Notes: a model not told the origin generated them from the sequence alone. A DNA stretch of 64,000 bases from SAR324 cluster bacterium (GCA_014382365.1 JACNJW010000039.1:62001-126000); one strand, 5' to 3'; positions 36,131-57,640 are shown, counted from the stretch's first letter. Program-made: numbers and translations.

Positions 36131-36155
36131 CTAAATCGTCCTTTATCAAAACTTG

Positions 36156-39451: not shown

Positions 39452-40561
39452 ATGCGCACATTGTTTATTTTTTTCGTGGCTGGTGTACTGACTGCGACCA
39501 CCTCGCTTTTGTTAGCTGGAAGTGGTTTTGGACAAGCACTACCTGTCGTGAAAATTAATGCAAAAAAGGCTGCCTTAGGCAAGCGTCTATTTTTCGATGA
39601 ACGCCTCTCAGGTGACGGTGCCTTAAGTTGTGCCAGTTGTCATATACCGGAGAAAGGATTTGCAGACGGCAAGCCACTCTCTAGTGCTTATCCCGGAACA
39701 GAAGGATTCCGCAACACACCAACATTGATCAACACTGTGCACAAAAAAAGCCTGGGCATACCTTGGTTTCATGATGGTCGGATAGGAACTAATCTGAATG
39801 ATGTTACACGTGATCAAATTACAGAGACAATTTGGATGAACATGGACATGCGGATTATGCAGGAGCGTGTCAAGCAGGACCCTGTTTATCGCAAAATGTT
39901 CAAGGATGTGGGCATGGGCGAACCTTCCAACGGCAAGGTCCGTAAGTTGATTCCAGAATACCTCAAAACTTTAACTTCTCGCAATGTACCTTTCGATCAG
40001 GGAAAAATGAGCGCTGCAGCCAAAAAAGGAGAAGCTTTGTTCAAAGGCAAAGGCGGATGTGCACAATGTCACAATGGACCTCTCTTTACGGACGGGCAAG
40101 CCCACAATCTAGGAGTTCCGGAAAATCAGGATATTTTCAAAGAGCCTTTGCGTCACATTACTTTCGTAGCCTTCAACATGTTTATGGGTAACGAAAACTT
40201 CATGAATCTACGCCGTGATCCGGGTGCACATGTGATTAATCACTATGCGGATGGACGTGATATGGGTAAGTTTTTTACACCAACTCTACGTGAGCTGAAA
40301 CAGACCGCACCTTACATGCACAACGGTATGCTGGCTTCGTTGAAAGACGTAGTTACCTTTTACAACAAAGGCGGAGGTAACGATCCAAACAAAGATTCAC
40401 GGTTGAAACCTCTGGGCATGTCGGCTCAGGAGCAGGCGAACATAGTGGCTTTTCTGGAGTCACTTTCCGGAGACCCGTTAACAGGTCCGGAACACGTCTA
40501 TGGCGAAAGTATTTCGCAAAAATATGATCCAATTCCGAATTGGTTGACGGTAGAAAATTAA
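39452..40561 (+). CDS. Diheme cytochrome c peroxidase-like protein, IdrP1/P2-type
   Basis: A 369-residue secreted protein of the bacterial CcpA/MauG family: signal peptide, then two heme sites CASCH and CAQCH, with KRLFFDERLSGDG near the N-terminus and the downstream TAPYMHNGMLASLKDVVTFYN typical of the family. The two peroxidase-like genes are followed directly by Rieske and AioA-family genes, the set that defines iodate reductase loci (IdrA, IdrB, IdrP1, IdrP2), where these peroxidases are proposed to remove H2O2 formed during iodate reduction. AAGGAGATATC precedes the ATG. P1 versus P2 cannot be decided here. Confidence 0.85.
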   Translation: MRTLFIFFVAGVLTATTSLLLAGSGFGQALPVVKINAKKAALGKRLFFDERLSGDGALSCASCHIPEKGFADGKPLSSAYPGTEGFRNTPTLINTVHKKSLGIPWFHDGRIGTNLNDVTRDQITETIWMNMDMRIMQERVKQDPVYRKMFKDVGMGEPSNGKVRKLIPEYLKTLTSRNVPFDQGKMSAAAKKGEALFKGKGGCAQCHNGPLFTDGQAHNLGVPENQDIFKEPLRHITFVAFNMFMGNENFMNLRRDPGAHVINHYADGRDMGKFFTPTLRELKQTAPYMHNGMLASLKDVVTFYNKGGGNDPNKDSRLKPLGMSAQEQANIVAFLESLSGDPLTGPEHVYGESISQKYDPIPNWLTVEN

Positions 40562-40571
40562 AGGAGCAGTA

Positions 40572-41705
40572 ATGAAATATTTGATCAAAAGGTTTTTGGC
40601 CTTAATTCTGGCAGGTTTGATTTTGCCAACCGGACTTCTGGCTTCCGGAGATCCGGACAGAGATGCACCACTTGATGCGTTAGGACCCGTTCCGGTGCAG
40701 CTGGATAATAAGCAGACTGCAGATAAAATAGCGCTGGGTAAAATGCTTTTCTTTGACCCGCGACTTGGTGGTGACGCTTCGGTTGCCTGTTCGGACTGTC
40801 ACAGTCCAAAAGAAGGCTGGTCTTTTGCTGCTCCGATTAGTCGCGGTTATCCCGCTACAATCCATTGGAGGAGTAGTCAAACTGTTATCAACTCTGCTTA
40901 TTACAGCAAATTGTTTTGGGCTGGCTCGTCAAAGTCCCTGGAAGCACAGGCTCCGTCTGCCGCAAAAGGCGGAGTGGCTGGAAACGGAGAAAACGACGTA
41001 ATGGAAGCCAGGTTGGCTTTTATTCCTGAATACCGCAAATTATTCCGGGATGTTTTCGGGGACGAATGGCCGCTGATTGGCAATGCCTGGAAAGCCATTG
41101 CTGCCTTTGAGCGTACTTTGGTTCAGCGGGATACCCCGTTTGATAAGTATATGCTGGGTGACGGAGCAGCACTTGGAGAAGCTCAAAAGAGAGGTCTGGC
41201 ACTCTTTGAAGGCAAAGCGAACTGTGTTGAGTGTCATAACAGTGCCCTGTTTTCCGATCAAAAATTTTACAACCTTGGTGTACCCCGCCATGATGGTTGG
41301 ATAGATGACGGTTTGAAGCAGATAACCTTTCGCTTTGAGTTATACGCCAAGGGTGTTACAGAAAAAGATTACCGCAGTTTGAAGGATGATCCGGGCTTGT
41401 ACTTCCGTACTAAGCAACAGCGTGATAAAGGTAAGTTCCGTACTCCAAGTTTGCGCTATTTAGTTTACACAGCACCGTATATGCACAACGGAGCATTTTT
41501 TGACTTGGAAGAGGTAATTGACTTTTACAACGAAGGCGGAGGAACTAATGATTTTGCTGCCAACAAAACTAAAATTTTGAAACCTCTGGGTTTGACTGAT
41601 GATGAAAAAGAGGATTTGTTGGCTTTTCTGGAAAGTTTGAGCGGAGAAGAAATTCTGATGGATGCTCCGAGACTACCAAAATATCAACCCTTAGCTAAGG
41701 ACTAA
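40572..41705 (+). CDS. Second diheme cytochrome c peroxidase-like protein, IdrP1/P2-type
   Basis: A 377-residue secreted paralogue of the preceding protein, with heme sites CSDCH and CVECH and the conserved GKMLFFDPRLGGD and TAPYMHNGAFFDLEEVIDFYN. It starts ten bases after the first gene with AAAGGAGCAGTA before the ATG. The close spacing and matching ribosome sites across all four genes show a single operon. Confidence 0.85.
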   Translation: MKYLIKRFLALILAGLILPTGLLASGDPDRDAPLDALGPVPVQLDNKQTADKIALGKMLFFDPRLGGDASVACSDCHSPKEGWSFAAPISRGYPATIHWRSSQTVINSAYYSKLFWAGSSKSLEAQAPSAAKGGVAGNGENDVMEARLAFIPEYRKLFRDVFGDEWPLIGNAWKAIAAFERTLVQRDTPFDKYMLGDGAALGEAQKRGLALFEGKANCVECHNSALFSDQKFYNLGVPRHDGWIDDGLKQITFRFELYAKGVTEKDYRSLKDDPGLYFRTKQQRDKGKFRTPSLRYLVYTAPYMHNGAFFDLEEVIDFYNEGGGTNDFAANKTKILKPLGLTDDEKEDLLAFLESLSGEEILMDAPRLPKYQPLAKD

Positions 41706-41714
41706 AGGAGAATT

Positions 41715-42275
41715 ATGAAAAAAACAGAAAGCGAAGGGAAAGCAACAGTGAAGCAAAGTGGTTGTGCTCTCTCAAGACGAAAATTTTTATTTTACAGCGG
41801 AACTGCACTGACGACAAGTACAGTTCTGCTGCAGATTCCTGGTGTTTTAAAAGCAAGGGAAGCACATGTGGCCACTTATCCCAGAAAGTTGATTGGCAAG
41901 ATGAGCCAGTTAAAACTCGATCAACCAGTGAATTTTAATTATCCGGATGATGGACTAAACGCCACCAGTGTTCTAGTCAAACTGGGACAGAAAGCTGGAG
42001 GAGGAGTAGGAAAACAACAGGATGTTGTGGCTTTCAATACTATTTGTACTCACCAGGGCGGACCACTGCTGGGCAGTTATAACAAAGAATATAAAACTCT
42101 TGGCCAATGTCCTTTTCATCTGACCACTTACGATTTGACACGCTACGGTATTATTGTTTCCGGACAGGCTTATCAAAGTTTGCCGCAAGTGTTGCTGGAA
42201 GTAAAAGGAGACAGTATTTACGCAGTTGGCGTGATGGGACTGATCTTTGGCAGAAATAACAATTTGATTGGATAA
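41715..42275 (+). CDS. idrB: Rieske [2Fe-2S] subunit of an AioB/IdrB-type enzyme
   Basis: A 186-residue protein with a Tat signal (SRRKFLFYSGTAL) and a Rieske site: CTH in TICTHQGGPL and CPFH in GQCPFHLTTYD. The extra disulfide cysteines of many Rieske proteins are missing (CTHQGG, not CTHxGC; CPFH, not CPCH). It would pass electrons between the molybdopterin subunit and periplasmic cytochromes. Order Rieske-then-catalytic is that of aio/idr operons for this pair. ATG preceded by AAAGGAGAATT. Confidence 0.85.
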   Translation: MKKTESEGKATVKQSGCALSRRKFLFYSGTALTTSTVLLQIPGVLKAREAHVATYPRKLIGKMSQLKLDQPVNFNYPDDGLNATSVLVKLGQKAGGGVGKQQDVVAFNTICTHQGGPLLGSYNKEYKTLGQCPFHLTTYDLTRYGIIVSGQAYQSLPQVLLEVKGDSIYAVGVMGLIFGRNNNLIG

Positions 42276-42287
42276 AAGGAGATAAAC

Positions 42288-44954
42288 ATGTCTACACCCT
42301 ATTACACACCAACTGATAAAGTACCTTTGCCTCCCCGTAATGCAGAAGTACTGACTACTGCCTGTGATTACTGCATTGTTGCCTGTGGTTATAAAGTCTA
42401 CCGCTGGCCGCTTGGTCAGGAAGGTGGGCACGAAGCCGCTAAGAATGCTTTTGGTAAGGATTTTCCTGTAGCAACTCTTCAGGAATGGATTGCCCCAAAC
42501 CAACACAACATTGTAATGCACAAGGGACGGCAGCACCATGTCGTAATCTTACCGGATAAGCAAACTAAGTTCGTCAATTTGTATGGTGATTCTTCGGTTC
42601 GCGGAGGAACGATTGCACAGAAATGCTACAATCCTGCGACTCCTACCAAAGATCGGCTGAAAACTCCGTTGATACGAATATATGATACGCTGATGCCTGT
42701 TACGTGGGACATGGCATTGGATGTGGCTGCAGAAGTAGGAAAGCATGTGATTGCCAAACATGGTGCGAATGCCTACTCGGTTAAGACTTTTTCGTATCAA
42801 TATATCGAAAACACTTATGCGATTACCAAGTATGCAAGACGGCATATTAATACTGCCGCATTTACCTGGCATGACACTCCATCTGATGTGACTTCAACTC
42901 CGGGCTTCCGTGATGCAGGCTTTGATAATTTTGGTGCAGCTTACAAAGATTGGGCTGATGCGGAAGTATTGATGATCTGCGGAACAGATCCTTACGAAAC
43001 TAAATCAATTCTTTTCACTCAGCATATTAAACCGGCAATTGAAGCAGGTCAAAAAGTGATTATGCTCAATCCACGTGAAACTGCTGGTGTCGCTTTTGCG
43101 AAAAAGATGGGCGGAATTCACATTGATCTCTATCCTGGGACAGATAATCTGGTCGTCAATGCCATGGCACGAATTATTGTCGAAAATGGCTGGGAGGATT
43201 CAGAGTGGATTAAAAAATGGGTCAACAACAAGTGGGAAACGGATTCCGGTTTTGGTCAGGGAACACGCAATACCCCCTGGCAGTGGCGTACTACCTGGGG
43301 TAAGTTCGAGTCTAAAGGTTTTGAAGATTGGAAAAAGTGGGTCATGGCACAACCGGAATATGAGTTGGAATATGCTGCTCGATTATCCGGGGTTGATCCT
43401 GCCAAAATACGAAAAGCAGCAGAATGGCTCTCCAAACCTGTCAACGGTAAGCGTCCGAAAACCTCGATCGGCATTGAAAAAGGATTTTACTGGTCAAATA
43501 ATACTGGCAACACGGAAGCTATCGGTGCTTTGGCGATTATCACAGGAACCGGTGGACGGCCTGGCCAAATGGTAGCACGTTTCGGCGGTCACCAGAGAGG
43601 TGGTACCGGTGGTGGTAAATACCCGCGTAATAAGTCACCGGAAAAAAGACCGGGAAGACGAAGGAGGGCACTGGATACCGATCGTTGGCTTTATTCAGAT
43701 CACACACGTTTTTCACATGTGATTGGTACGACTTGGCTGCAGTCAATGTGTGGTTCACAGGGACTGCAGAAAAAATTTCATGAACTGGTAACTGCAAATC
43801 CGCACCAGATTCGTTCTTTTGATAAAGCAGAAATCATTGAAACGCTGAAGAAACGTGCTGATTCCGGTGGTATGGTGGTTATAAATCAGGATATCTACCT
43901 GGTTGATCCAATTGGAGCAAAATTTGCGGACATTGTTTTTCCTGCTGCAACATGGGGTGAGGAAGATTTTGTCCGTGCTAACGGTGAACGCCGTTTGCGG
44001 CTCTACTCCAAGTTCTATGATGCACCGGGAGAGGCTAAACCGGACTGGTGGATAATCAGTCGGCTTGCACAGCGAATGGGTTTCGACGGTTTTGACTGGG
44101 AAAACTCAAATGATGTTTTTGAGGAATCCTGTCGCTTTTCACGAGGCAACCGCAAGGATTATAATATGATCAAGGTTGATGCACGTGCCAAAGGAATTAC
44201 TGCTCACGAACGCCTGCGACAGTTTGGTACTGATGGTATTCAGGGACCGGTGTTTCGAGTTAACGGAGAACTGGTTGGAACAACCCGTCTGCATGATACG
44301 CAGAAGGAACTTCCGGAAACCGGGCCGATGGGTGCAAATATGTTCAACAAAAAGCTGACTCACTTTAATTCGCAAACGGGGAAGAATAACATTATGAAGT
44401 CTCCGTGGAGCCTTTTTTCAGATTTCTGGGAATGGCTCTCACCAAAAGGTGATGAATTATGGGTGACCAACGGTCGCATCAACGAAATTTGGCAGTCAGG
44501 TTTCGACGATGTTGAAAGGCGTCCCTATATAACTCAACGCTGGCCGGAAAACTATTGCGAAATTCATCCGGACGATGCCAGAAGGCGTGGAATTAAATCC
44601 GGAGATCGGGTCATGGTCTATTCGGAACGAGTAGCGGAGCAAAAGGAAACTATTCTTGGAGTTAAGGGTGATGATTTTCAATTTTCCTCATTAATGGATA
44701 GAGGTCAAATTGAGCTCAGTAAAGGTGCGGTGACAGCAATTGCAATGGTGACACCTGCTATTAAAAAAGGAGTTTTATTTATGAATTTCCTTGATAAACG
44801 TCAACCGTCTAATGCCATTCAAGCAAGAGTGGTAGATCAAATTAGCGGAAACTACAATTATAAGATGGGAGTCGGAAAGATCGTTCGACTTGGAGGCTCA
44901 GCTTACCAGAGAGATCAACATTCCTTCTCGTTTGCACCTCGCAACATCGTATAA
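42288..44954 (+). CDS. idrA: AioA-family molybdopterin catalytic subunit, probable iodate reductase
   Basis: An 888-residue protein with the AioA/IdrA iron-sulfur motif C26-x2-C29-x3-C33 and a Ser (S103, in SSVRGG) near the fourth-ligand position, indicating a [3Fe-4S] cluster. Segments NQDIYLVDPIGAKFADIVFP, NGERRLRLYSKFYDAPGEAK and PAATWGEEDF match AioA-family folds. No signal peptide is present; it would be exported with its Tat-bearing Rieske partner. The two peroxidase genes upstream favour iodate reductase (IO3- to iodide or hypoiodous acid) over arsenite oxidase, which lacks such partners. The order here, P-P-B-A, differs from the described A-B-P1-P2. Confidence 0.75.
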   Translation: MSTPYYTPTDKVPLPPRNAEVLTTACDYCIVACGYKVYRWPLGQEGGHEAAKNAFGKDFPVATLQEWIAPNQHNIVMHKGRQHHVVILPDKQTKFVNLYGDSSVRGGTIAQKCYNPATPTKDRLKTPLIRIYDTLMPVTWDMALDVAAEVGKHVIAKHGANAYSVKTFSYQYIENTYAITKYARRHINTAAFTWHDTPSDVTSTPGFRDAGFDNFGAAYKDWADAEVLMICGTDPYETKSILFTQHIKPAIEAGQKVIMLNPRETAGVAFAKKMGGIHIDLYPGTDNLVVNAMARIIVENGWEDSEWIKKWVNNKWETDSGFGQGTRNTPWQWRTTWGKFESKGFEDWKKWVMAQPEYELEYAARLSGVDPAKIRKAAEWLSKPVNGKRPKTSIGIEKGFYWSNNTGNTEAIGALAIITGTGGRPGQMVARFGGHQRGGTGGGKYPRNKSPEKRPGRRRRALDTDRWLYSDHTRFSHVIGTTWLQSMCGSQGLQKKFHELVTANPHQIRSFDKAEIIETLKKRADSGGMVVINQDIYLVDPIGAKFADIVFPAATWGEEDFVRANGERRLRLYSKFYDAPGEAKPDWWIISRLAQRMGFDGFDWENSNDVFEESCRFSRGNRKDYNMIKVDARAKGITAHERLRQFGTDGIQGPVFRVNGELVGTTRLHDTQKELPETGPMGANMFNKKLTHFNSQTGKNNIMKSPWSLFSDFWEWLSPKGDELWVTNGRINEIWQSGFDDVERRPYITQRWPENYCEIHPDDARRRGIKSGDRVMVYSERVAEQKETILGVKGDDFQFSSLMDRGQIELSKGAVTAIAMVTPAIKKGVLFMNFLDKRQPSNAIQARVVDQISGNYNYKMGVGKIVRLGGSAYQRDQHSFSFAPRNIV

Positions 44955-44994: not shown

Positions 44995-45225
44995 TTAACT
45001 ATATGGTATTTCAATGTTTACAGATAGATTTATTTAATTTGCAATTAATTGTAAGAAAATTGTCTCCTGTACGACAAAAATGTAAATTAGTACTAAATTA
45101 TATAATTGAGTGATTAAGCCGTTAACAGCTTTTTTGGAATAATCCAAATTTAGCTGAGTCAGATTGCTTTATCTACAATTGAAGTGATCAAATCAATTGA
45201 GTCTGAACCTAAACAAAAAATTGCT

Positions 45226-45999
45226 ATGAGAATTTTTATATCCCTGGTATTCGTCTGTTTGCTTTTTGGTGCATCTCAGGCACTTAGTGCTAAAAAGTAT
45301 AAAGTAATTGAAGTCAAAAATGGTGGATCGGTTTCCGGAAGTGTTTTGCTGAAAGGCAAAGTTCCCAACCCGGAACGGATTGCCGTTGCCAAAAATCCGG
45401 AAGCCTGCGGAACCGAAGACCGTATGATTAAGTGGGTTGAAGCCGGTGAAAAAGGCGGGTTACAGAATATGGTGGTTTATCTCTACAAAGTAAAAAAGGG
45501 CAAAGGGTGGAAAAATGACTCTGGAACTTATGAGATTGATCAAAAAGATTGTGATTTCCACCCTTGGCTAAAGATTGTTCCCAAAGGTAGCAAATTGATT
45601 GTCAAAAATTCTGATCCGGTTTTACACAATATTCATATCCGCGAATTGAAAGGAGTCAAGCCTGGAAAACGCTATCGTCCGGTGAAAAAGACTGTGTATA
45701 ACGAAGGACAACCACCTGGAAGCGGTGATATTAACACTGAGATCAAAACGCGAATGAGAGGAAACTTAATTCGTATCAACTGTGAAGCACACAATTTCAT
45801 GTTTGCCTGGATGTTTGCTGCAGACCATCCTTATGTTGTACAAACAAATGCCGATGGTAGTTACTCCATCGACAACATTCCAGCGGGGAAATATAAACTT
45901 CGTGCCTGGCATCCGACTCTTGGTTTAAAAGAACAGAAAATCAAAGTTGCAGCTGGTGCTTCAGTCACTCAGGATTTTACTTTCAAAGGAAAAAAATAA
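45226..45999 (+). CDS. Cupredoxin-like protein with carboxypeptidase-regulatory-like domain
   Basis: A 257-residue secreted protein. The ATG at 45226 opens on the signal peptide (IFISLVFVCLLFGASQALS), favoured over an upstream GTG. The middle is a cupredoxin-like fold with a plausible type-1 copper site: His in VLHNIHI and a C-x2-H-x2-M group in NCEAHNFM. The last 70 residues (DGSYSIDNIPAGKYKLRAWH) are a carboxypeptidase-regulatory-like beta domain. It may be a periplasmic copper electron carrier serving the iodate or bd-like enzymes that flank it. Confidence 0.7.
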   Translation: MRIFISLVFVCLLFGASQALSAKKYKVIEVKNGGSVSGSVLLKGKVPNPERIAVAKNPEACGTEDRMIKWVEAGEKGGLQNMVVYLYKVKKGKGWKNDSGTYEIDQKDCDFHPWLKIVPKGSKLIVKNSDPVLHNIHIRELKGVKPGKRYRPVKKTVYNEGQPPGSGDINTEIKTRMRGNLIRINCEAHNFMFAWMFAADHPYVVQTNADGSYSIDNIPAGKYKLRAWHPTLGLKEQKIKVAAGASVTQDFTFKGKK

Positions 46000-46083: not shown

Positions 46084-46815
46084 ATGTTACGATGGAAAAT
46101 ATTTTTAAGTCTCACTTTAGCATTATTTTTAGGAGTAATGCCTCTACAGGCAAAAAAATATAAAGCTCTTAAAAAAGGTGTAAAAAATGGTGCAACTTTA
46201 ACCGGACAAATTGTATTTGACGGCACGCCGCCAAAACCAAGAATGCTCAAGGTTGATAAAGATACTGAGACCTGTGGAAGCGATCGTCTTTCCGAAGAAT
46301 TGGAAGTCTCTTCCGGAGGTGGTATCAAAAATGTGGTGGTCAGTATTGAGGGAATTTATAAAGGGAAAAAATGGAAAAAGAGTTTCAAAAAATTCACTTA
46401 TGACCAAAAGGGTTGTCGGTTTGTACCGCATATTATTTTGATGCGTGCAAAAGCAAAAGGCGTGGTACTCAATAGTGACAATGTTGGACACAATTTCCAC
46501 ACTGTCAGTAAAGGGGTTTACAATATCAATAAAAAAATTAAAGCCAATGCCAAAATGAAGGTCAAGAAAAAGAAGATCAAGAAATCCGGAATAATTCGGG
46601 TAAAGTGCGATCTGCACTCTTGGATGGGAGGTTGGTGGATTGTGGCCAAAACACCTTACACAGAATTAACAGATGCCTCAGGTAAATTCAGCATTGCTGA
46701 TATTCCTCCTGGAAAATATACTTTGAAAATTTGGCAGGAAAAGCTTGGTGAAACCAAACAAAAGCTAGTGATCAAAGCTGGTGAAACCAAAAACATCAGC
46801 ATCAAAATTAAATGA
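46084..46815 (+). CDS. Second cupredoxin-like protein with carboxypeptidase-regulatory-like domain
   Basis: A 243-residue secreted protein, very Lys-rich, of the same layout as its neighbour: signal peptide, cupredoxin-like domain with VGHNFHTV and C-x2-H-x2-M in KCDLHSWM, then a C-terminal DASGKFSIADIPPGKYTLKI beta domain. AAAAGGAGAACAA precedes the ATG. The two genes probably arose by duplication. It precedes the bd-like oxidase genes. Confidence 0.7.
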   Translation: MLRWKIFLSLTLALFLGVMPLQAKKYKALKKGVKNGATLTGQIVFDGTPPKPRMLKVDKDTETCGSDRLSEELEVSSGGGIKNVVVSIEGIYKGKKWKKSFKKFTYDQKGCRFVPHIILMRAKAKGVVLNSDNVGHNFHTVSKGVYNINKKIKANAKMKVKKKKIKKSGIIRVKCDLHSWMGGWWIVAKTPYTELTDASGKFSIADIPPGKYTLKIWQEKLGETKQKLVIKAGETKNISIKIK

Positions 46816-46931: not shown

Positions 46932-48893
46932 ATGTCGCATTTATTACCGAACAAATTTAGAAAAAACTCAAGATTGTGGATGCCATTGTTCCTTTCCGGA
47001 ATAGTGTTTCTTGGAGGAGTATTTTCTGTTTTTGGTGCGGGTGCGCAGGAAATAGTAGACTACAGAACTTTCTTTGGTTTTGATCCACGGACTACAGTAT
47101 GGATTATTGCAGAACTGCATTTGATGTTTGGGGCTTTTGTTCTGGGTGTGCCGATGTTTGCGGTGACTGTTGAATATGTTGGTGTGTTGACCGGAGAAGA
47201 ACGCTATGACCGTTTGGCCAAGGATTTTACCCGTCTGCTTTCGGCTTCCTTTGCTCTGACTGCAGCTTTGGGAGGTTTATTGACTTTTGCACTGTTCACG
47301 CTTTATCCAAAAGTTATGACCTTCATGTCAGGAATCTTTCATGAAAGTTTTTACATTTATGCTTTCTTTTTCTTTGGAGAAACTTTTGTCCTCTATTTTT
47401 ATTACTATTCCTGGGATCGCTTAAAAAACCGAAAGGGTATTCATATTTCTGCTGGTATCTTGTTGAATCTTATCGGTCTGATCATCATGGGAATTTCAAA
47501 TTCCTGGGCAACTTACATGATGAGTCCGTCAGGGATTGATCCGGAGACCATGAAATTCACCGGAACTCTAATGGATGCCATCTGGAATCCGCTTTGGAAT
47601 CCACTCAATTTACACCGTATTTTAGGAAACGCCGTTTTTGGCGGCTATGTCGCCGGTGCTTATGCAGCGGTTAAATTTTTAACTGCACAAACAGAAGAAG
47701 ACCGTGCCCATTACGATTGGATGGGTTATGTCGGCAATTTTATTGCCATTGTCTCGCTCCTCTTTTTGCCGTTCGCCGGTTATTATTTGGGGCGCGAAGT
47801 TTATAGTTTCAGCCCGGTTATGGGGAACAACATGATGGGCGGTGCGTTCAGTTGGACCTTTATCATCCAAGCCATCGGTATCGGTAGTTTGCTGATTTTA
47901 GGCAATTTTTATTTGTGGATGGGAATGGGACGCATTCCGGGAGCCGAGCGTTATCAGGGGTTTATCAAATTCATCCTTTTTATTTTGACACTTTCTTTTG
48001 CGATTTGGCTCACGCCGCACAACTTGCCTTTGAGTTCCGGCGAACAATTACGAATGGGCGGCCAATATCATCCGACACTAAAATTTTTCGGCTTAATGCC
48101 GGCCAAAAACGCGGTTATCAATTTTATGATTCTTGGCACATTCTTCAGTTTTTTGCTCTATCGTCGGGGCAACATTTCCAAAACAATTCCCTTTTCGCAA
48201 CAAGGCGGCGGAGCAAAGTTCTGGACTTTGATTTTCACCGGACTCGCTTTTGCGTCAATTTTGTGGTATGGCGAATATCTTTGGAATCTTGATCCAAAAG
48301 AGCTCGACCTTCCTCCCGAAAAAGTTGAATTTTTTTCATTAGCCGCCTGGTGTTTAATTGGACAAGCCTTTTTTATTGCAGTGGCAGTTGCTTTCACTTT
48401 CAAGGACCAAGGAAAAATTGGACAAGCAATTTTATTTACTTACACAGTGATTAACACAGTCTTTATTTTAGGAATTTACGGATTTGTGGTGATGGCTGAG
48501 GCCAGTCCTTTCTTGAGAAACATTGCAGTAGCCCAGTGGTTGTCAATGTTGAGTTGCATCATTGCAGTACTCACAATTGATATTTTTATCTTCCGCAAAG
48601 CAGAACACATGGGGGCGATTCGCTGGGGTAAAATGTCTGCAGTTTCACAATATGTTTTATTGACGTTGTTTATTGTGTCTTTGTTGACAATGGGTATCAT
48701 GGGCTTTATCCGTTCAGGTTTGCGTGAAAACTGGCACGTTTACGGAGTTTTGGAGGATACATCTGACTGGGCCTTTACGCCGACCAATCTATATGCCGCA
48801 AAGGTTATTGCTTTTTGTGCACTCACGTTCATTTTAATGATGACAGTTGCCTTCTGGCTGAGTGAATTAGGAGAGAAGAAAAAAGTAAAATAG
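46932..48893 (+). CDS. bd-like oxidase subunit I homologue, module A
   Basis: A 653-residue membrane protein whose first half resembles CydA of cytochrome bd: H63 in AELHLMFGAFVLG aligns with the conserved heme ligand His of helix I, and LHRILGN holds a second conserved His. The quinol-loop GRQPW motif of CydA is absent and the C-terminal half differs, with about 14 helices in total. Enzymes of this kind are known from Nitrospira as bd-like oxidases. The three following genes encode cytochromes c, so electrons probably enter from these rather than directly from quinol. Oxygen reduction is likely but unproven. Confidence 0.75.
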   Translation: MSHLLPNKFRKNSRLWMPLFLSGIVFLGGVFSVFGAGAQEIVDYRTFFGFDPRTTVWIIAELHLMFGAFVLGVPMFAVTVEYVGVLTGEERYDRLAKDFTRLLSASFALTAALGGLLTFALFTLYPKVMTFMSGIFHESFYIYAFFFFGETFVLYFYYYSWDRLKNRKGIHISAGILLNLIGLIIMGISNSWATYMMSPSGIDPETMKFTGTLMDAIWNPLWNPLNLHRILGNAVFGGYVAGAYAAVKFLTAQTEEDRAHYDWMGYVGNFIAIVSLLFLPFAGYYLGREVYSFSPVMGNNMMGGAFSWTFIIQAIGIGSLLILGNFYLWMGMGRIPGAERYQGFIKFILFILTLSFAIWLTPHNLPLSSGEQLRMGGQYHPTLKFFGLMPAKNAVINFMILGTFFSFLLYRRGNISKTIPFSQQGGGAKFWTLIFTGLAFASILWYGEYLWNLDPKELDLPPEKVEFFSLAAWCLIGQAFFIAVAVAFTFKDQGKIGQAILFTYTVINTVFILGIYGFVVMAEASPFLRNIAVAQWLSMLSCIIAVLTIDIFIFRKAEHMGAIRWGKMSAVSQYVLLTLFIVSLLTMGIMGFIRSGLRENWHVYGVLEDTSDWAFTPTNLYAAKVIAFCALTFILMMTVAFWLSELGEKKKVK

Positions 48894-48908: not shown

Positions 48909-50081
48909 ATGAAGCGAATTCTACCGATAGTAATTTTTGTATTTTCTGTTTTGGGGGCCTTTGTCTATGTGGGTTATGTGGTGACAGATATCGCCGGTGG
49001 TGGAGTGGCTACCGCTGGTGCTGAAGGCGTGAGTCCTGAAGCCGGTGAAACAATTTTCTGGGGCAAAGGAAAATGCTACACTTGTCACAGTATTGGCGAC
49101 GAGGGTAGTGCCATCCGCTGTCCAAATTTGGGTGAAAACAACATTGCCGCCTTATTGTCATTACCTGTTGGTGTTCGGGCTGAAGAACGCGCTGTGTTGC
49201 GGAGTGAGCAGACAGGAAAACACTTTTCTGCAACCGATTATTTAGTTGAAAGCCTGGCAGATCCTGGAGCCTATGTTGTTGACGGTTTTAAAAACGAAAT
49301 GCCTTATGTTTATAAGCCTCCAATCGGTTTGACACCTGATGAAGTGAAAGCCGTTATTTTGTATTTGCAAAGTCAAGGTGGAGAAGTTGATGTGGCACAA
49401 ATCAAACTTCCGGATGTAATACTTGCGGCACAAAAAGAAGAAGCTGAACCATGGCAACCGTATTTTGCAGGTGATCCTGAAAACGGCATGGAGCTTTTCT
49501 TTGACGAAGAAAGCAACGCCGGTTGTTCCCGTTGCCATACGGTAGCAGAAAATGGAGGAAAAGTAGGTCCTGAGTTGACAACTGTTTCCGGAACACGTTC
49601 CCCACAATATATTGTCGAATCCATAATACAACCCAGCGAAGTTATTGCCAGTGGTTTTGAATCCCTGTTAATTGTCAGTAAAGACGGACGATATTTGACT
49701 GGAATCAAAAAGGGTGAGGACGAACAGTCAATTTCCTTGATGCTTGATACTGGAGAAATTCAAAAAGTTTCCAAAGATGAAATAGAAGAAGTGGCTCCAC
49801 AAGAAACGTCTGTGATGCCTTCCGGATTTGCCGATGATCTCACCATGACCGAATTCCATGATGTATTGGCCTTTGTTTTGACTCTCGATGGTGAACAACC
49901 AATAGGTGGCAGCGGGGATGAAGATGAGGAAGATGATGATGAAGAGGAAAGTGCTGACGAAGACTCCGAAGATGTGGAAGATGATTCAGGTGATGATGAG
50001 GAAAGTGATGATGAGGAAAGTGATGATGAGGAAAGTGATGATGAGGATGAGAACGGCAGGGATAAAGGAGAGGAAGGATGA
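48909..50081 (+). CDS. Diheme cytochrome c with acidic tail, module A
   Basis: A 390-residue protein with an N-terminal anchor helix and two heme sites: CYTCHSIG (about residue 56) and CSRCHTVA (about 202). The second half, including GPELTTVSG and RSPQYIVESIIQPSEVIASG, matches the heme-binding domain first described in planctomycetes (TIGR02603 type). The last 55 residues are almost all Asp, Glu and Ser, encoded by a 15-base DNA repeat (GATGATGAGGAAAGT) at about 49992-50045. It starts 16 bases after the bd-like gene and overlaps the next by four bases. Confidence 0.8.
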   Translation: MKRILPIVIFVFSVLGAFVYVGYVVTDIAGGGVATAGAEGVSPEAGETIFWGKGKCYTCHSIGDEGSAIRCPNLGENNIAALLSLPVGVRAEERAVLRSEQTGKHFSATDYLVESLADPGAYVVDGFKNEMPYVYKPPIGLTPDEVKAVILYLQSQGGEVDVAQIKLPDVILAAQKEEAEPWQPYFAGDPENGMELFFDEESNAGCSRCHTVAENGGKVGPELTTVSGTRSPQYIVESIIQPSEVIASGFESLLIVSKDGRYLTGIKKGEDEQSISLMLDTGEIQKVSKDEIEEVAPQETSVMPSGFADDLTMTEFHDVLAFVLTLDGEQPIGGSGDEDEEDDDEEESADEDSEDVEDDSGDDEESDDEESDDEESDDEDENGRDKGEEG

Positions 50082-50953
50082 ACTTTTTTTGGAAAATAGT
50101 GCTGTTTTTTGTTGCTATCCGTTATGGGTTTTTTGAAGTTGTTTTTCCCAGAGTTTCACAATGGGCAGTCAACTCTCCGGATTTATTACCAGCACCAGCG
50201 GCGGCTATGAGCATGTATACCTGGCTGATGATGGTAGCCATTGCAATTTATATTCTTTCAAGTGAAGAAAGAATTGCTGATTTTATGACGCCAATTCATC
50301 AGTTTCTTAAACCCCAAACAGCAGCAGCTAAAAAAGGTATGCAGATTGTGGTGCTGGCAGCAATACCATTATTTGGTGGATGGAGTTATTTTGATGTTAA
50401 CTCTCCCAAAATGGTCAGCCCAACTGCAGTTCGTATTCAGCATCCAACCATGCCCGGCTCATTTGAAGGCATGAAGAATCCGCTACGCGATCCCACCGAG
50501 GAGCAGGTTGAGGAATTCATTGCAGAGCAAAAAGAGTTGGCAGAAGAGGCTGCAGAAGATGAAGAAATGGAGCCGGTAACCGTACCCAATAATATTGAGG
50601 ATGGTCGCATTGCCTTAGTCTCCAAATGGACGGAAGAAGGTGCAGCACTTTATGCAGTAAATTGCCGACCTTGTCATGGAATGCAGGCGGATGGTGTGGG
50701 ACCAATGGCTGTAGGCTGGCGTTTACAACCTGCCAATTTCCGGGATCCTGGGACTATTGCGACTATTGTTGAAGAATATGCTTTTTGGCGTGTGAGCAAA
50801 GGTGGTCCGGGATTACCTTCTGCATCCACTCCATGGGACTCTGCAATGCCGATTTGGGATTTGGACTTATCAGAAAATGAACGTTGGAAAATACTACTGG
50901 GAGAATATTTTCTTGCTGGTGTAGGTCCGCGACAAACAGAAAAACTGGAATGA
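50078..50953 (+). CDS. Membrane-bound monoheme cytochrome c, module A
   Basis: A 291-residue protein with two or three N-terminal helices (WLMMVAIAIYILSS, GMQIVVLAAIPLFGGWSYF) and one heme domain with CRPCHGMQADGVGP and the family pattern PANFRDPGTIA. A Glu-rich segment (QVEEFIAEQKELAEEAAEDE) links them. GGAGAGGAAGG precedes the ATG, which lies inside the previous stop. Probable electron entry subunit for the bd-like protein. Confidence 0.8.
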   Translation: MNFFWKIVLFFVAIRYGFFEVVFPRVSQWAVNSPDLLPAPAAAMSMYTWLMMVAIAIYILSSEERIADFMTPIHQFLKPQTAAAKKGMQIVVLAAIPLFGGWSYFDVNSPKMVSPTAVRIQHPTMPGSFEGMKNPLRDPTEEQVEEFIAEQKELAEEAAEDEEMEPVTVPNNIEDGRIALVSKWTEEGAALYAVNCRPCHGMQADGVGPMAVGWRLQPANFRDPGTIATIVEEYAFWRVSKGGPGLPSASTPWDSAMPIWDLDLSENERWKILLGEYFLAGVGPRQTEKLE

Positions 50954-50978
50954 TGCAAAGCAGAAAGATAACAAAAAT

Positions 50979-52592
50979 ATGATTCCATTACATTCCTTAG
51001 AAAAAAACGGATTACAAAAATATCAGCTTTGGCTGTCATTATTTCTGTTGCTGCTTTTTACATGTGTTGGACTTTTAAATGCACAAACTGCAGAAAAACT
51101 TCCGGCAACCGCTGAAAATTTAGTGGCGGGAAAACAGATTTACCGCAACAGTTGTTGGTATTGTCATGGAAAAATCGGAGACGGAAATGGTCCTGCGGCA
51201 GATTTTCTGGATCCGCGTCCACGAGATTTTACGGCGGGAATGTACAAAATCCGCACGACCAAAACCGGAGAATTGCCCACCGATGAAGACCTTTTCCGGA
51301 TCATCAGCAAAGGCATTCCGGGAACAGCTATGCCGCGCTGGGAATTGACGCTTGACGATAATGAACGATGGCAGGTTTTGCAGTACATTAAGGCTTTTGC
51401 CTACGAATTTTCCGATCCGGAATATGACCCCTACAAAGCGGTGGTGGAAATTCCGCCAAAGGTTGAATCGTCTCCGGAAAGTATTGCCCAGGGCCGGAAA
51501 ATATTTGAAAAAAATAAATGCTTTGAATGTCATGGTTTGGAAGGAAAAGGTGACGGACGCGACGGTTTAGAAGACGGTTGGGGCTTTCCGGTGCGTGTCC
51601 GGAACTTAACAAGAGGCACAAATATTAAAGGCGGTAAGAATCCGGAAGATATTGTTTATCGTTTCACCACCGGAATCAACGGCACGCCAATGCCCTCTTT
51701 TGCAAAAAATATCGGCGGCGAAGATCGCTGGCATTTGGCGAATTATATTGCTTCCATTGCCAGTACAGAGTATAGCGAAGGTGTGATCCTCAAAGCTGTT
51801 AAAATCGAACAAACTGCTCCGTCAACAATCGATGCGGAAATTTGGGAGACGCTTCCGGCATTGCGGATTCCATTGGCCGGACAGGTAATTGCCAAACCAC
51901 GTTGGCAAAATCATGCTATTGATTTAGTACAAGTTCGTGCTGTATTCAATGATGAAGAAATTAGTTTCCTCGTGGAATGGGACGATCCGTTTCAAGACAC
52001 AAAACATGATGCAGAACAAGAAATTCACGAATATGAAAATACTTATGTCATGGCAGTTGATGAAGTACCACGCGAGCGGAATGTGTTCCGGGACTCGATT
52101 GCAATGCAATTTCCGGTGAAGCTCAAATCAGGAGCAAAAAAACCGCACTTTTTCCGCGGCGATACCAGTAATCCGGTCAACTTATGGGTTTGGAAATCAG
52201 ATCTTGAAGCCTCTGGAAACAATCCGGTAGAAGATACCAACGCCAACGGTTTCAATAAACCTCTCAAATCACAACCGGAGACAGGACAACAGGTGACAGG
52301 AAAAGGCGTTTGGAAAAATGGGCGCTGGCGGGTGGTCATGAAACGAACGCTGACTACTGAAGACCGTAACGATATTCAGTTTGAAAAAGGAAAAATGATT
52401 CCGATGGCTTTCAACGCCTGGGACGGCTCAAACGGCGAACACGGCCTGATCATGTCACTGTCTGCCTGGAGTTTTGTTTATTTGGATGTTCCAATTCCAA
52501 CCAATTTGTACGGCTATGCTTTTCTGATAATGCTAATAATCGCAGGATTGTTATTATTATTTATTCGCTATAGCCGCTCTAAGTCTTCTTAA
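50979..52592 (+). CDS. Diheme cytochrome c with ethylbenzene-dehydrogenase-like heme domain, module A
   Basis: A 537-residue secreted protein with two heme c domains (CWYCHGKIGDGNG and CFECHGLEGKGDG), then a domain of about 230 residues resembling the heme b-binding gamma subunit of ethylbenzene dehydrogenase (LRIPLAGQVIAKPRW, FLVEWDDPFQDT), and a C-terminal helix (AFLIMLIIAGLLLLFI) anchoring it. It closely parallels the protein at 56039. Likely a periplasmic electron carrier linking other reductases or oxidases to the bd-like membrane core. Confidence 0.8.
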   Translation: MIPLHSLEKNGLQKYQLWLSLFLLLLFTCVGLLNAQTAEKLPATAENLVAGKQIYRNSCWYCHGKIGDGNGPAADFLDPRPRDFTAGMYKIRTTKTGELPTDEDLFRIISKGIPGTAMPRWELTLDDNERWQVLQYIKAFAYEFSDPEYDPYKAVVEIPPKVESSPESIAQGRKIFEKNKCFECHGLEGKGDGRDGLEDGWGFPVRVRNLTRGTNIKGGKNPEDIVYRFTTGINGTPMPSFAKNIGGEDRWHLANYIASIASTEYSEGVILKAVKIEQTAPSTIDAEIWETLPALRIPLAGQVIAKPRWQNHAIDLVQVRAVFNDEEISFLVEWDDPFQDTKHDAEQEIHEYENTYVMAVDEVPRERNVFRDSIAMQFPVKLKSGAKKPHFFRGDTSNPVNLWVWKSDLEASGNNPVEDTNANGFNKPLKSQPETGQQVTGKGVWKNGRWRVVMKRTLTTEDRNDIQFEKGKMIPMAFNAWDGSNGEHGLIMSLSAWSFVYLDVPIPTNLYGYAFLIMLIIAGLLLLFIRYSRSKSS

Positions 52593-52612: not shown

Positions 52613-54379
52613 GTGCAAGCAAAAATAAATAGAATAGATAATTCAAAATATGTTGTACGCAGTATTTTTCTGCTGTTGTTTTTGGGTCTTGCCGGAGCAG
52701 TCTGGGGGCAGGAACTGATTGAGTTGCCTGAATATCGGGCATTTCCGATTATTGGCAGTCGGGTGGCGGTTTGGATTGCCGCAGAGGTGCATTTGATGTT
52801 TGCTGCGTTTGTGCTGGGTGTGCCGATGTTTGCAGTGATTGTCGAACTGATTGGTGTTCTCACAAAGCAAGAACGCTATGACAAGATGTCTAAGGAGTTC
52901 ACTAAACTATTGGCAATTGCTATGTCCACCACTGCCATTTGGGGGGGGATTTTGCTTTTCCTGCTTTTGACGCTATACCCGCGTTTCATGAATTACCTCT
53001 CTGAGGTTTTCCTGCCGACTCTCTGGATTTATCCTTTTCTTTTCTTTCTCGAAGCCTTCACGCTCTATATTTATTATTATGGTTGGGAGCGGATGAAAAG
53101 CGGAAAGAGTAAATGGTTTCATCTTTATCTCGGACTTCAACTCAACATTGTCGGCACTGTTTTATTGTTGGTAGCCAATGCCTGGGCCACTTTTATGATG
53201 ACTCCCGGAGGTGTTGACATGAAAACCGGAGCCTTGATGAATATTTGGGAAGTCATCGACAATTTCGCGTGGTGGCCGATCAACATTCACCGTTTGATTG
53301 CCAATGTGACATTTGGCGGTGCAATCGTAGCGGCTTATGCGGCATTTAAGTTTTTGCATTCCAGCACAGATGAAGATAAGGCGCATTATGATTGGATGGG
53401 GTATGTCGGCAACATGATTGCCATTTGGTCGTTTTTGGTTTTGCCGTTTGCAGGATACTGGTTGATGCGCGAGTTATATCAATATGATCAGACAATGGGT
53501 ATCACAATGATGGGCGGATTTCTCTCCTGGCTTTGGATTATTCAGGCGGTACTGATTTCATCACTTTTTCTAGCCAGCAATTATTATTTGTGGCTGGGCA
53601 TGGAGCGGATTGACGGCGGGGAGCGTTACCAGAAATATATCAAATATATGCTCAGTGTTTTGCTCTTGTGTGTTTGGGTTTGGGCAACTCCGCACAGCCT
53701 TGTGGTTTCACCGGAAGAAGTCGCGGTCATGGGCGGCGTACATCATCCGGTAATCGGAATTTTCGGCGTGATGTCCGCAAAAATGACGGCGGTCAACTTT
53801 ATGATTTTAACTTCGGCAATCGGCTTTATGTTTTACCGCCGCGCCAACAAAGTGGCAACTGTCAGTTATGCGATGCCGCTTAATTTGCTGCAAGCCGGAA
53901 TTTTTGCAGGAGTCGGGGCTTATGTTTTGTACTTGGGTGTGGACGGATATTTTGTCGAACCAAGCATTCGCGTCAATAAATATTCGGTTTGGCAGGTTTT
54001 AGCGGTTTTATTCGCCATCATTTCAACAACAGTGATTGATGTTTTCCTTTTTAAAAATTCTGAATCTCTTGGCAAATTCCATTGGGGGAAAATGCCGCAA
54101 CGCTCCCAATATATTTTGATTTTTATTGCAGTTACCTTCACTTGGCTGATGGGATTGATGGGCTATGCCCGTTCCGCAATTCGTCAGCATTGGCACGTCT
54201 ATAAAGTGATGGAAGATACTTCAGTTGATGCTTTTGCGCCAACTCTAGGTTTTGCCTCAAATGTGGTTTCAGTTTGCGTCTTAATCTTCTTGGGGTTGGT
54301 CATGTTTATTTTCTGGCTTGGTTCACTGGCTGACCCGAAAAAGAAAGAAACTCCGGTTGTGGCGGAGATGAACCGATGA
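52613..54379 (+). CDS. bd-like oxidase subunit I homologue, module B
   Basis: A 588-residue paralogue of the module A protein, sharing AEVHLMFAAFVLGVPMFAV (His60), NIHRLIANVTFGG and YDWMGYVGNMIAIWS, and again lacking GRQPW. The start is a GTG; no ATG lies near. It is about 65 residues shorter than its paralogue. It overlaps the next gene by four bases (ATGA). Confidence 0.75.
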   Translation: MQAKINRIDNSKYVVRSIFLLLFLGLAGAVWGQELIELPEYRAFPIIGSRVAVWIAAEVHLMFAAFVLGVPMFAVIVELIGVLTKQERYDKMSKEFTKLLAIAMSTTAIWGGILLFLLLTLYPRFMNYLSEVFLPTLWIYPFLFFLEAFTLYIYYYGWERMKSGKSKWFHLYLGLQLNIVGTVLLLVANAWATFMMTPGGVDMKTGALMNIWEVIDNFAWWPINIHRLIANVTFGGAIVAAYAAFKFLHSSTDEDKAHYDWMGYVGNMIAIWSFLVLPFAGYWLMRELYQYDQTMGITMMGGFLSWLWIIQAVLISSLFLASNYYLWLGMERIDGGERYQKYIKYMLSVLLLCVWVWATPHSLVVSPEEVAVMGGVHHPVIGIFGVMSAKMTAVNFMILTSAIGFMFYRRANKVATVSYAMPLNLLQAGIFAGVGAYVLYLGVDGYFVEPSIRVNKYSVWQVLAVLFAIISTTVIDVFLFKNSESLGKFHWGKMPQRSQYILIFIAVTFTWLMGLMGYARSAIRQHWHVYKVMEDTSVDAFAPTLGFASNVVSVCVLIFLGLVMFIFWLGSLADPKKKETPVVAEMNR

Positions 54380-55167
54380 ACACAATTAAAGTCATTCTTT
54401 TCACTGTTTTAGTTGTTGGTTTTTATTCTTTTTACGCCAATAGCATTCCGCAAACCGAATCACATCCGCCAAAAAAAATCAGCCTTGACGCAAAACTCAG
54501 CGAAGACGAAATGATCGAAGCCGGAGAGCGTGTTTATTCGACAAAAGGCACTTGCGGAATTTGCCATGCAATTGGGCGCAAAGGTTCGCGAGGACCGGAT
54601 TTGAACGGTGTCGGTTTACGGGCCGCAAACCGCAGAGAAGGCATGAACGCAAAAATTTATTTACTGGAATCGCTGTTGGATCCGTCTGTTTATTTGGTGG
54701 AAGGCTACGCACCGATGATGCCACCGATGGCCGGTATTTTGACTCCCGGAGAAGTGATGGTGACAGTCGCTTATCTTCAAAGTTTGGGCGGGCAGGTTAA
54801 TATTACTCCGGAGGATGTCCGGGCCGCAATGCAGGTTGGTGCAAGTTCAACTTCTCCGGTTACGGAAGTAGCTCCGGCAGTTGAAGAAACAGCTGTAAAC
54901 ACTATTATTAATGAAGTGAAATCCGGTGATGCAGAAAAAGGGAAAACGGTCTATAACACTTTTTGTATTGCATGTCATAATCCTGACCCGGCTTTGGCTG
55001 GTCCAATTGGGCCGGAAATCAAAGGTTCTTCACGGGAATTGCTGGAAGCACGTGTCATGCGGGGGCAATATCCGGATGATTACACACCCAAAAGGGAAAC
55101 GAAAATTATGCCACCCATGACAAATCTGGTTAACGACATTGACCATTTGACTGAATTTTTGAAATAA
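54376..55167 (+). CDS. Diheme cytochrome c, module B
   Basis: A 263-residue protein with an N-terminal anchor helix and two heme sites, CGICHAIGRKGSRGPDL and CIACHNPDPAL, separated by a Pro/Glu/Ala-rich linker. It is the counterpart of 48909 in module A but has no acidic tail and a simpler second domain. Confidence 0.8.
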   Translation: MNTIKVILFTVLVVGFYSFYANSIPQTESHPPKKISLDAKLSEDEMIEAGERVYSTKGTCGICHAIGRKGSRGPDLNGVGLRAANRREGMNAKIYLLESLLDPSVYLVEGYAPMMPPMAGILTPGEVMVTVAYLQSLGGQVNITPEDVRAAMQVGASSTSPVTEVAPAVEETAVNTIINEVKSGDAEKGKTVYNTFCIACHNPDPALAGPIGPEIKGSSRELLEARVMRGQYPDDYTPKRETKIMPPMTNLVNDIDHLTEFLK

Positions 55168-55179
55168 ACTGTTCAAACA

Positions 55180-55941
55180 ATGTTTAAAAAAATTCTTACA
55201 CATATTTTATTTATCAATGCTTTGATTGTGCTGGCTGTTGTCTTATTTCTGCAATATGCAGTTGTGCCGGCCATTCCGCAAAGTGTTTTTTCATTCTATG
55301 TGATTGCGTTGATTTTGGGTTTAATCTTGTTTGTGACTTCAACCAGCAAGAATTTAGAGGAATTCTGGCAGCCCATCGAAGTACTTTTGACCAATGATAA
55401 ATTGATTGTTTTACGGTGGCTGGTGCTGTTGACAATTCCGGCTGTGCTTGCTTTTTACATCGGATTATCTATGTTACCTTCTAATCAGGCACCTTTGGAA
55501 TTAAGGGTAGTCCATCCTGCACCGCCTGGAGAAATCATTTTTAACGGAAAAACAATCAGTATGCGGGATGTCGTTAATCCCTTCAGAGCATATGAAACTT
55601 CTGATCCGGAAAAATTTACGGAACACGTAGAGTTGGGACGCAAAGTTTATTATGAAAATTGCCATTTTTGTCACGGCGATTTTCTGGACGGCAAAGGTAC
55701 TTTTGCTAATGCGCTCGACCCGAAACCGGCCAATTTTCAAGATGTCGGAACGATTGCTCAGTTGCAGGAAACCTATGTTTTTTGGCGCATTGCCAAAGGC
55801 GGACCGGGACTGCCGGCAGAGTCGATGCCGTGGCAGTCAGCAATGCCGGCCTGGGAGGGTATCTTGTCTGAAGAAGATATTTGGGACGTAACCTTGTTTT
55901 TATACAAAGCAACCAATCACCCTCCGCGAACTTGGGAATGA
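55180..55941 (+). CDS. Membrane-bound monoheme cytochrome c, module B
   Basis: A 253-residue protein with three N-terminal helices and one heme domain, CHFCHGDFLDGKG, followed by PANFQDVGTIAQLQETYVFW, which mirrors PANFRDPGTIATIVEEYAFW in the module A protein at 50078. Probable electron entry subunit. Confidence 0.8.
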   Translation: MFKKILTHILFINALIVLAVVLFLQYAVVPAIPQSVFSFYVIALILGLILFVTSTSKNLEEFWQPIEVLLTNDKLIVLRWLVLLTIPAVLAFYIGLSMLPSNQAPLELRVVHPAPPGEIIFNGKTISMRDVVNPFRAYETSDPEKFTEHVELGRKVYYENCHFCHGDFLDGKGTFANALDPKPANFQDVGTIAQLQETYVFWRIAKGGPGLPAESMPWQSAMPAWEGILSEEDIWDVTLFLYKATNHPPRTWE

Positions 55942-56038
55942 TTTAGTATTTGTGCCCATGGATCATTCGAATAAAAACGGAAAAAATCCGAACAACCATC
56001 GAAAATTTGTGACTGATTATAGATTTATTGGTTTTTTT

Positions 56039-57640
56039 ATGAATCGTATATTTTACGGAATATTGGCTTTAATCATTTTTAGTGTACCGCTAGTTGCTTC
56101 GGCGGCTGGGCACTCGCACGACCATTCCGGAGGCAAAGCAGTTTATGACGAACATTGTGCACATTGCCATGGATACGAAGGTGACGGACAAGGTTATGCT
56201 TTTGAAAATGCTTTTCCGAAACCGAGAGATTTTACTTTCGGAATGTTCAAAATCCGTACAACTGCTACCGGAGAAGAACCTACGCAAGACGACCTTTTCA
56301 ACATCATCAGCAGAGGAATGCCCGGAACCACCATGCCGGAATGGGCAACTGTGCTGAACGAACAACAACGCCGCGATGTCGCCGTTTATGTAGAGCAGTT
56401 TTACAAGGGTGAAGATGAGGAGGAAGAAGACGAAGAAGTAGATGAGGATGAAACTGAAAAGGAAGAAGCAGACGAAGAAGAGACTGACGAGGAAGAAGCA
56501 GACGAAGAAGAGGAAGAGGTGGATGATGAAGATGAAGAAGATGCTCCGGTTGCACCTCTCGTAATTCCAAAAGCACCGGTTTCTACTCCGGAAAGCATTG
56601 CACTCGGCAAGGAATTGACCATAAAAGTAGAATGCGATAAATGTCACGGAAAAGAGGGACGAGCGGATGGTCCATCTGCAATGGAATTGAAGGACGATTG
56701 GAATCAATTAGCGATGCGCCCTGCAGACTGGACTGCTCCCTGGCGTTTCAGAGGTGGAAATCTTCCGGAAGATATTTTCCGTACAGTACGAACAGGGCTT
56801 AACGGTACGGCCATGCCCTCCTTTGCGGAAGATCTAACAGATGAAGAGACATGGAATGTAGTGCATTATGTGCGCTCACTGGCTCCAGAAGTTGAACCGA
56901 ATGTAAAACGAACACTTGTTTCTAAAGAAGTGGAAGGTGAACTTTCATTAGAAATGGATGTTCAATGGCAAGCTGCTCAGGAATTTTATGTGCCGTTTTC
57001 CGGACAAGTGATTGTCAACGAACGACTGTTTCAACCCATGGTACATTCTCTCCGTTTTCGTTCTATTTACAATGAAGAAGAAATAGCCTTCCGGATTCAG
57101 TGGAACGATCCGACTTCAAAAGATCACAAAGATTTTGCCGGCGGTGATGAAATGATTTTACAATTTCCGGCAAAGCTTAAAAAAGGTGAACGTATCAAGC
57201 CATATTTTTTGATGGGACAGCCCGGCAAGTCGGTCAACATCTGGCTTTGGAGCGATGCTACAGGAAAAGCAGTTGACGCAAAATCCTCGCGTTTGGGTGA
57301 TTGGCTGGTACGAGAAGATCACAACTTGGATTCTAAAATTGAACACAAAAACGGTCAATATACTTTGTCGATTAAACGTGCCCGTGTCAACGAACAAAAA
57401 GGAAGCATCCAGTTTCCACCTGATCAGGTGTTCGTGCCAATTGCATTTTCTGTAGTCGAAGGCTCCAGCGGTGAAGGCGGCAGCAAACGTGGTGTAACAA
57501 CCTGGTATAATTTACTGCTGGAACAGCCCGTTGGAAATAATATCTATTATGTGCCGATTTTGATATTTCTGTTAATTCTTGGTTTGGAAATACTGTTGAT
57601 GATACGCACCAGGAAAAATTTTAAGGCAGCAAAAAGTTAA
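56039..57640 (+). CDS. Diheme cytochrome c with acidic linker and ethylbenzene-dehydrogenase-like domain, module B
   Basis: A 533-residue protein. ATG at 56039 opens on the signal peptide (IFYGILALIIFSVPLVASA); an upstream in-frame ATG at 55952 would add 29 polar residues. First heme CAHCHGYEGDGQG, then a 45-residue linker of almost only Glu and Asp (about 126-170), second heme CDKCHGKEGRADG, a heme b-type ethylbenzene-dehydrogenase-like domain (FYVPFSGQVIVNERLF, FRIQWNDPTS) and a C-terminal helix. Same architecture as 50979 apart from the acidic linker. Confidence 0.8.
   Translation: MNRIFYGILALIIFSVPLVASAAGHSHDHSGGKAVYDEHCAHCHGYEGDGQGYAFENAFPKPRDFTFGMFKIRTTATGEEPTQDDLFNIISRGMPGTTMPEWATVLNEQQRRDVAVYVEQFYKGEDEEEEDEEVDEDETEKEEADEEETDEEEADEEEEEVDDEDEEDAPVAPLVIPKAPVSTPESIALGKELTIKVECDKCHGKEGRADGPSAMELKDDWNQLAMRPADWTAPWRFRGGNLPEDIFRTVRTGLNGTAMPSFAEDLTDEETWNVVHYVRSLAPEVEPNVKRTLVSKEVEGELSLEMDVQWQAAQEFYVPFSGQVIVNERLFQPMVHSLRFRSIYNEEEIAFRIQWNDPTSKDHKDFAGGDEMILQFPAKLKKGERIKPYFLMGQPGKSVNIWLWSDATGKAVDAKSSRLGDWLVREDHNLDSKIEHKNGQYTLSIKRARVNEQKGSIQFPPDQVFVPIAFSVVEGSSGEGGSKRGVTTWYNLLLEQPVGNNIYYVPILIFLLILGLEILLMIRTRKNFKAAKS

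Follow-up and report, generated by a model that had tools for sequence, protein, structure and literature searches.

The genome of a SAR324 cluster bacterium very probably encodes a complete iodate reductase, with the genes idrP1, idrP2, idrB and idrA in their canonical order. The locus occupies positions 39452-44954 of a 64,000-nucleotide stretch of DNA (GCA_014382365.1, JACNJW010000039.1:62001-126000; hereafter the window, numbered from its first nucleotide), and the assignment is drawn from sequence comparison. A first-pass annotation of the window had proposed an iodate reductase at this site, and the proposal holds: the catalytic subunit branches outside AioA, within an IdrA-type clade, and the two peroxidases group as IdrP1 and IdrP2.

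The four genes form a single operon on the plus strand. Each open reading frame is preceded by AAGGAG, and the gaps between them are 10, 9 and 12 nucleotides, matching the shared ribosome sites and gaps of about ten bases described in the first pass. The first gene, idrP1 (39452..40561), encodes an exported, di-haem peroxidase-like protein of 369 residues with two CXXCH motifs (CCP_MauG, 121.6 bits), which is of the MauG type, with a Tyr in the motif FYNKGGG. The product of idrP2 (40572..41705, 377 residues) is likewise a MauG-type di-haem peroxidase-like protein with two CXXCH motifs (CCP_MauG, 141.8 bits; FYNEGGG). IdrB (41715..42275, 186 residues) is a Rieske [2Fe-2S] small subunit (Pfam Rieske, 28.8 bits) that carries the twin-arginine translocation (Tat) motif SRRKFLF. 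IdrA (42288..44954, 888 residues) is the molybdopterin catalytic subunit with a [3Fe-4S] motif (Pfam Molybdopterin, 131.3 bits) and has no signal peptide. The spacing of the IdrB motif, CXHX18CX2H, is identical to that published for Azoarcus DN11, while the IdrA motif is CX2CX3CX69S compared with the published CX2CX3CX70S. All four proteins are found in the same arrangement in close relatives of the window, so the arrangement is not due to chance.

Standard annotation obscures this identity. IdrA scores 434 bits against the NCBIfam model TIGR02693 (cut-off 359) and IdrB 127.7 bits against TIGR02694 (cut-off 95.7). These models carry the name 'arsenate reductase (azurin)', for the large and the small subunit respectively, which denotes arsenite oxidase. 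Since both curated cut-offs are exceeded, a pipeline would label the pair arsenite oxidase, as the first pass had anticipated. The best matches of IdrA in the PDB are also AioA structures, and a Rieske gene directly 5' of a [3Fe-4S] molybdopterin gene is shared with the AioBA systems of NT-26, Thermus and Nitrobacter plasmids. The catalytic-subunit tree, however, sets 61 IdrA-type proteins, including that of the window, apart from 7 AioA with 100% support (quick maximum likelihood; support from the Shimodaira-Hasegawa-like approximate likelihood ratio test; some AioA branches are long). The window protein is 49-94% identical to IdrA-type proteins and about 28-30% identical to AioA. Among plasmids, its closest match is in Vibrio sp. 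THAF190c at 67%, with Azonexus hydrophilus at 50.6% and Thiothrix subterranea at 49%. The same division appears across the family of Ruegeria (298 genomes), where the matches form two groups, at 46-72% (IdrA-type) and 30-33% (AioA). For membership, a published IdrA profile uses a score over 640 (PMC8692401).

The active site differs as well. Eight residues past the active-site His, the window has a Ser where AioA has a Glu (3/3 AioA aligned); in A. faecalis the AioA pair is H195/E203. The RxGGHQ motif is retained in IdrA, and the residue that follows it is Arg in nearly all IdrA but Glu in the aligned AioA. The separate AioA clade, the low AioA identity and the replaced Glu together lead us to reject an arsenite oxidase identity.

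The peroxidases support the same placement. P1 falls in the IdrP1 clade and P2 in the IdrP2 clade, with 98% support each, and the MauG, MauG-like and CcpA sequences included lie outside both. The best plasmid matches of P1, P2 and IdrA come from the same three replicons. IdrP proteins resemble MauG/MbnH-type enzymes in the CCP_MauG fold, the two CXXCH motifs and a PYMHxG motif followed by a Tyr, as in MauG. This Tyr, in FY[ND]xGG or a close form, is present in 79/79 P1 and 79/80 P2 sequences. At this position Azospirillum CcpA has a Met and MauG a Tyr; the haem ligand of MauG is Tyr294. By analogy with MauG, the Tyr in place of the CcpA Met suggests that IdrP1 and IdrP2 have MauG-type haem chemistry rather than that of a plain CcpA peroxidase. 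The Tyr motif argues against CcpA, and with clades of their own the two proteins are not MauG proper either.

The order P1-P2-B-A is found in every locus that contains all four genes, 78 among 91 loci (76 in forward orientation and 2 in reverse; the 78 include two duplicates). The annotated Azonexus and Thiothrix plasmids and the locus of Endozoicomonas sp. OPT23 show it too, and idrP1P2 have been reported always to precede idrAB (PMC8801600). The label 'idrABP1P2' is thus a name and not a gene map. The first pass had read it as a map and described a rearranged operon with the peroxidases moved to the front; we reject that description.

The window locus shares its four genes, its cofactor motifs, the position of idrP1P2 before idrAB and a Tat signal on IdrB but not on IdrA with the known Idr systems of Pseudomonas sp. 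SCT, Denitromonas sp. IR-12, Azoarcus sp. DN11 and Aromatoleum TC-10. Those systems are accompanied by a two-component system, cytochrome c551 and moaA, whereas the window has cupredoxins and two CydA-like/cytochrome units. It also differs in its SAR324 host and its marine IdrA subclade.

SAR324 is a widespread deep-ocean lineage. The genome of the window comprises 3.25 Mb in 71 contigs. IdrA is present in 7/52 genomes of the SAR324 phylum; the protein of a same-genus genome is 94% identical to that of the window, and that of a same-family genome 84%. One genome (G026) has two copies. The window IdrA belongs to a SAR324 clade of 7 (99% support) that unites the phylum's IdrA sequences apart from the second G026 copy, which branches basally in the marine subclade. 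The sister group of the SAR324 clade is gammaproteobacterial and includes Endozoicomonas sp. OPT23, listed as a predicted iodate reducer (PMC8692401). A link between SAR324 and iodate was not found in the literature searched, which left out most subscription papers and preprints, and SAR324 as an idr host seems new. The finding is of interest because it is not settled which organisms reduce iodate in oxygen-poor seawater. Correct naming matters too, because standard pipelines label idr genes arsenite oxidase. The second G026 locus (L041, contig C4, 8960-14391) is divergent, with an IdrA 65% identical, and occurs in the same genome as locus L040.

In the mechanism we propose, IdrA would be carried by IdrB through the Tat system into the periplasm. 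Electrons would enter at the Rieske centre of IdrB and pass through the [3Fe-4S] cluster of IdrA to the molybdenum, where iodate would be reduced to hypoiodous acid and finally to iodide. IdrP1 and IdrP2 may clear peroxide or other oxidants that arise on the way. As for the electron source, the idr cluster has no quinone oxidoreductase; in known iodate reducers the supply is attributed to a cytochrome c together with a quinone oxidoreductase that is not dedicated to Idr, and the literature leaves the carriers that feed Idr as 'non-dedicated' (PMC8692401).

Downstream of idrA, on the same strand, the window contains a set of putative electron carriers. The first gene, cup1 (45184..45999; the start is uncertain and an ATG at 45226 is possible), encodes a predicted exported cupredoxin with a C-terminal carboxypeptidase-regulatory-like domain. 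Its ligands H148, C200, H203 and M206 are invariant across 22 aligned sequences, and the predicted model (predicted local distance difference test 82.6) matches AcoP, CuA and pseudoazurin folds in Foldseek (probability 1.00, E about 1e-5 to 1e-4). A paralogue, cup2 (46084..46815), shares the CxxHxxM motif, is 35% identical to cup1-type proteins and is seen in SAR324 loci (L039, G035 and G039). It is followed by bd1 (46932..48893), a CydA-like membrane protein (Cyt_bd_oxida_I, 80 bits) whose Foldseek match is CydA of bd oxidases (E 1.3e-7, probability 1.00). Together with bd1, the carriers of unit 1 (48909..52592) have a common order in SAR324 and marine alphaproteobacteria; by Pfam they are a c-type cytochrome (48909), a membrane-anchored cytochrome c (50078) and a cytochrome c-cytochrome c-EB_dh fusion (50979). 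Unit 2 (52613..57640) repeats the scheme with a CydA-like protein (52613, assigned by Pfam and phmmer only), a cytochrome c (54376), a membrane-anchored cytochrome c (55180) and a cytochrome c-EB_dh fusion (55952; Pfam). It lies upstream of idrP1 in five loci (L051, L089, L106, L120 and L061) and downstream of idrA in others.

These genes recur beside idr. Among 80 idr loci, the closest 80 from a GTDB scan, cup1 is near idr in 27, and cup1, a CydA-like gene or an EB_dh gene in at least 31, a lower bound because contigs end. The CydA-like gene is found in 17/18 IdrA genomes of one alphaproteobacterial order against 5/279 others (Fisher p 2e-22), and in 5/7 IdrA genomes of SAR324 against 0/45 others (Fisher p 8e-6). 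It shares a contig with idr, 3.5-14 kb apart, in 12/17 genomes. CydA-like units lie 5' of idrP1 in some lineages and 3' of idrA in others, which indicates repeated co-location rather than one frozen order. Five alphaproteobacterial genomes have the CydA-like gene and no IdrA; in two of them, G375 and G434, the contigs stop where idr would come, so assembly gaps may explain such genomes. Two observations weaken the association: the p values overstate independence, because the genomes counted are related, and the CydA-like module is absent at the idr loci of Vibrio, Ruegeria, Endozoicomonas and Azonexus. No description of a larger conserved idr cluster was found in the literature searched, again with most subscription papers and preprints outside it, and the linkage of idr to a cupredoxin gene and two CydA-like/cytochrome/EB_dh units seems new.

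A comparable set is known from nitrite oxidoreductase (NXR). In Nitrospina, Nitrospira and Kuenenia, NXR is accompanied by a bd-like protein, cytochromes c with one or two haems, NxrC and a pair of cupredoxin-like proteins (PMC3578206). The two sets share the same kinds of parts next to a periplasmic molybdoenzyme, compared by kind and not by sequence; the window differs in having Idr as the molybdoenzyme and two CydA-like units. This suggests an electron-transfer set alike in kind to that of nitrite oxidisers.

In this lineage the downstream cupredoxins and CydA-like/cytochrome c/EB_dh units may be the partners that exchange electrons with Idr, and we put the chance that they supply it with electrons at about even. 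If they do, they offer a testable answer to the question of which carriers feed Idr. A somewhat less likely, but serious, candidate role for the CydA-like units is that of OR-N-like oxygen reductases that draw on the same cytochrome c pool and lower the oxygen level around an oxygen-sensitive Idr, instead of supplying it with electrons. The CydA fold of bd1 is consistent with this role, OR-N CydAA' proteins have been proposed as cytochrome c-oxidising oxygen reductases (PMC10839748), and Idr appears oxygen-sensitive (PMC11445184). The OR-N type is, however, a candidate label taken from the fold and not from a tree, the role of the bd-like protein in nitrite oxidisers and the anaerobe Kuenenia is unsettled (PMC3578206), and the cupredoxin and EB_dh partners are equally consistent with electron transfer.

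Two points weigh against iodate reduction by the window enzyme itself. In the catalytic-subunit tree the reference for IdrA is a predicted iodate reducer, Endozoicomonas sp. OPT23, rather than a verified enzyme such as that of Denitromonas, Pseudomonas SCT or Roseovarius azorensis. In early 2022 the confirmed iodate-respiring isolates all belonged to one small IdrA clade (PMC8801600), and the window IdrA lies in a mainly marine clade, sister to the one with the Azonexus type. IdrA of the Azonexus type shares 50% identity with that of the window, and its gene neighbourhood, with a two-component system upstream and a cytochrome c and moaA downstream, resembles that of the small clade of confirmed isolates.

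It is conceivable, if unlikely, that the main substrate of the marine subclade is a different oxidant, for instance bromate, chlorate or some other oxyanion, or that the enzyme functions as a sink for electrons and not in respiration. The subclade is well apart from the Azonexus/Thiothrix type in the tree, and three marine bacteria with idr, alphaproteobacteria among them, reduce iodate and do not grow on it (PMC11445184). Against another oxidant, the marine Roseovarius azorensis responds to 0.1 uM iodate by inducing idrA, and its IdrA was identified by mass spectrometry during the work on activity; both IdrA subclades are present in Ruegeria's family, and the family search does not place R. 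azorensis in either. For the iodate respiration proposed in the first pass, the iodate-reductase family thus stands and respiration is unproven.

An oxidising direction, in which Idr would oxidise reduced iodine towards iodate, with the electrons leaving via cupredoxin and cytochromes for the CydA-like units and then oxygen, is suggested by analogy with nitrite oxidisers, which may use NXR and like carriers in this way. We consider it very unlikely, and all proven idr systems act as reductases, although the sequence holds no information on direction and the oxidase-like units are compatible with it. If true, the cluster would be a candidate microbial source of marine iodate. An AioBA arsenite oxidase with peroxidases adjoining by chance is most improbable, for all its NCBIfam scores and AioA structural matches, as the peroxidases are fixed in all four-gene loci and not present at the AioA loci viewed, in addition to the clade, identity and active-site differences given above.

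Beyond unit 2, the window continues with accessory genes (57665..62428, plus strand) that encode radical SAM/SPASM and PCP_red (57665), PCP_red (59005) and Usp and PCP_red (60011) proteins. Genes for radical SAM and Usp/PCP_red proteins are found repeatedly next to idr in marine alphaproteobacteria and Thiotrichaceae, and radical SAM/SPASM and PCP_red proteins also next to the CydA-like units. The best matches of the radical SAM/SPASM protein are NirJ2 and AhbD, below cut-offs. These proteins are possibly involved in haem or cofactor maturation. In marine alphaproteobacteria, a HEAT-like-repeat protein of ~750 residues lies between idrA and cup1 (L202, about 12700-15000; L206).

Upstream of the operon, the NirS and the ArrA-like enzyme named in the first pass are both present. 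NirS (cytochrome cd1, 23588-25201) matches PF02239 with 411 bits. In L039, a close relative, its gene immediately precedes idrP1, whereas in the window the two are separated by ~13 kb with genes for oxidase, cytochrome b, SCO and CHAT proteins. NirS is seen in 1/80 loci, so its position beside idr is lineage-specific and we reject it as a general idr partner. The ArrA-like molybdoenzyme (14734-17277) is accompanied by an ArrB-like subunit and a TorD-type chaperone, to 18840. It scores 1123 bits against NF041714 (ArrA), below the cut-off of 1600, and may therefore be related to ArrA without being ArrA itself. A CHAT-domain (caspase-like) protein is encoded at 36153-38654, upstream of idrP1, and a divergent haem-copper oxidase-like protein at 34264-35658 (COX1, 38 bits) matches no NCBIfam model.

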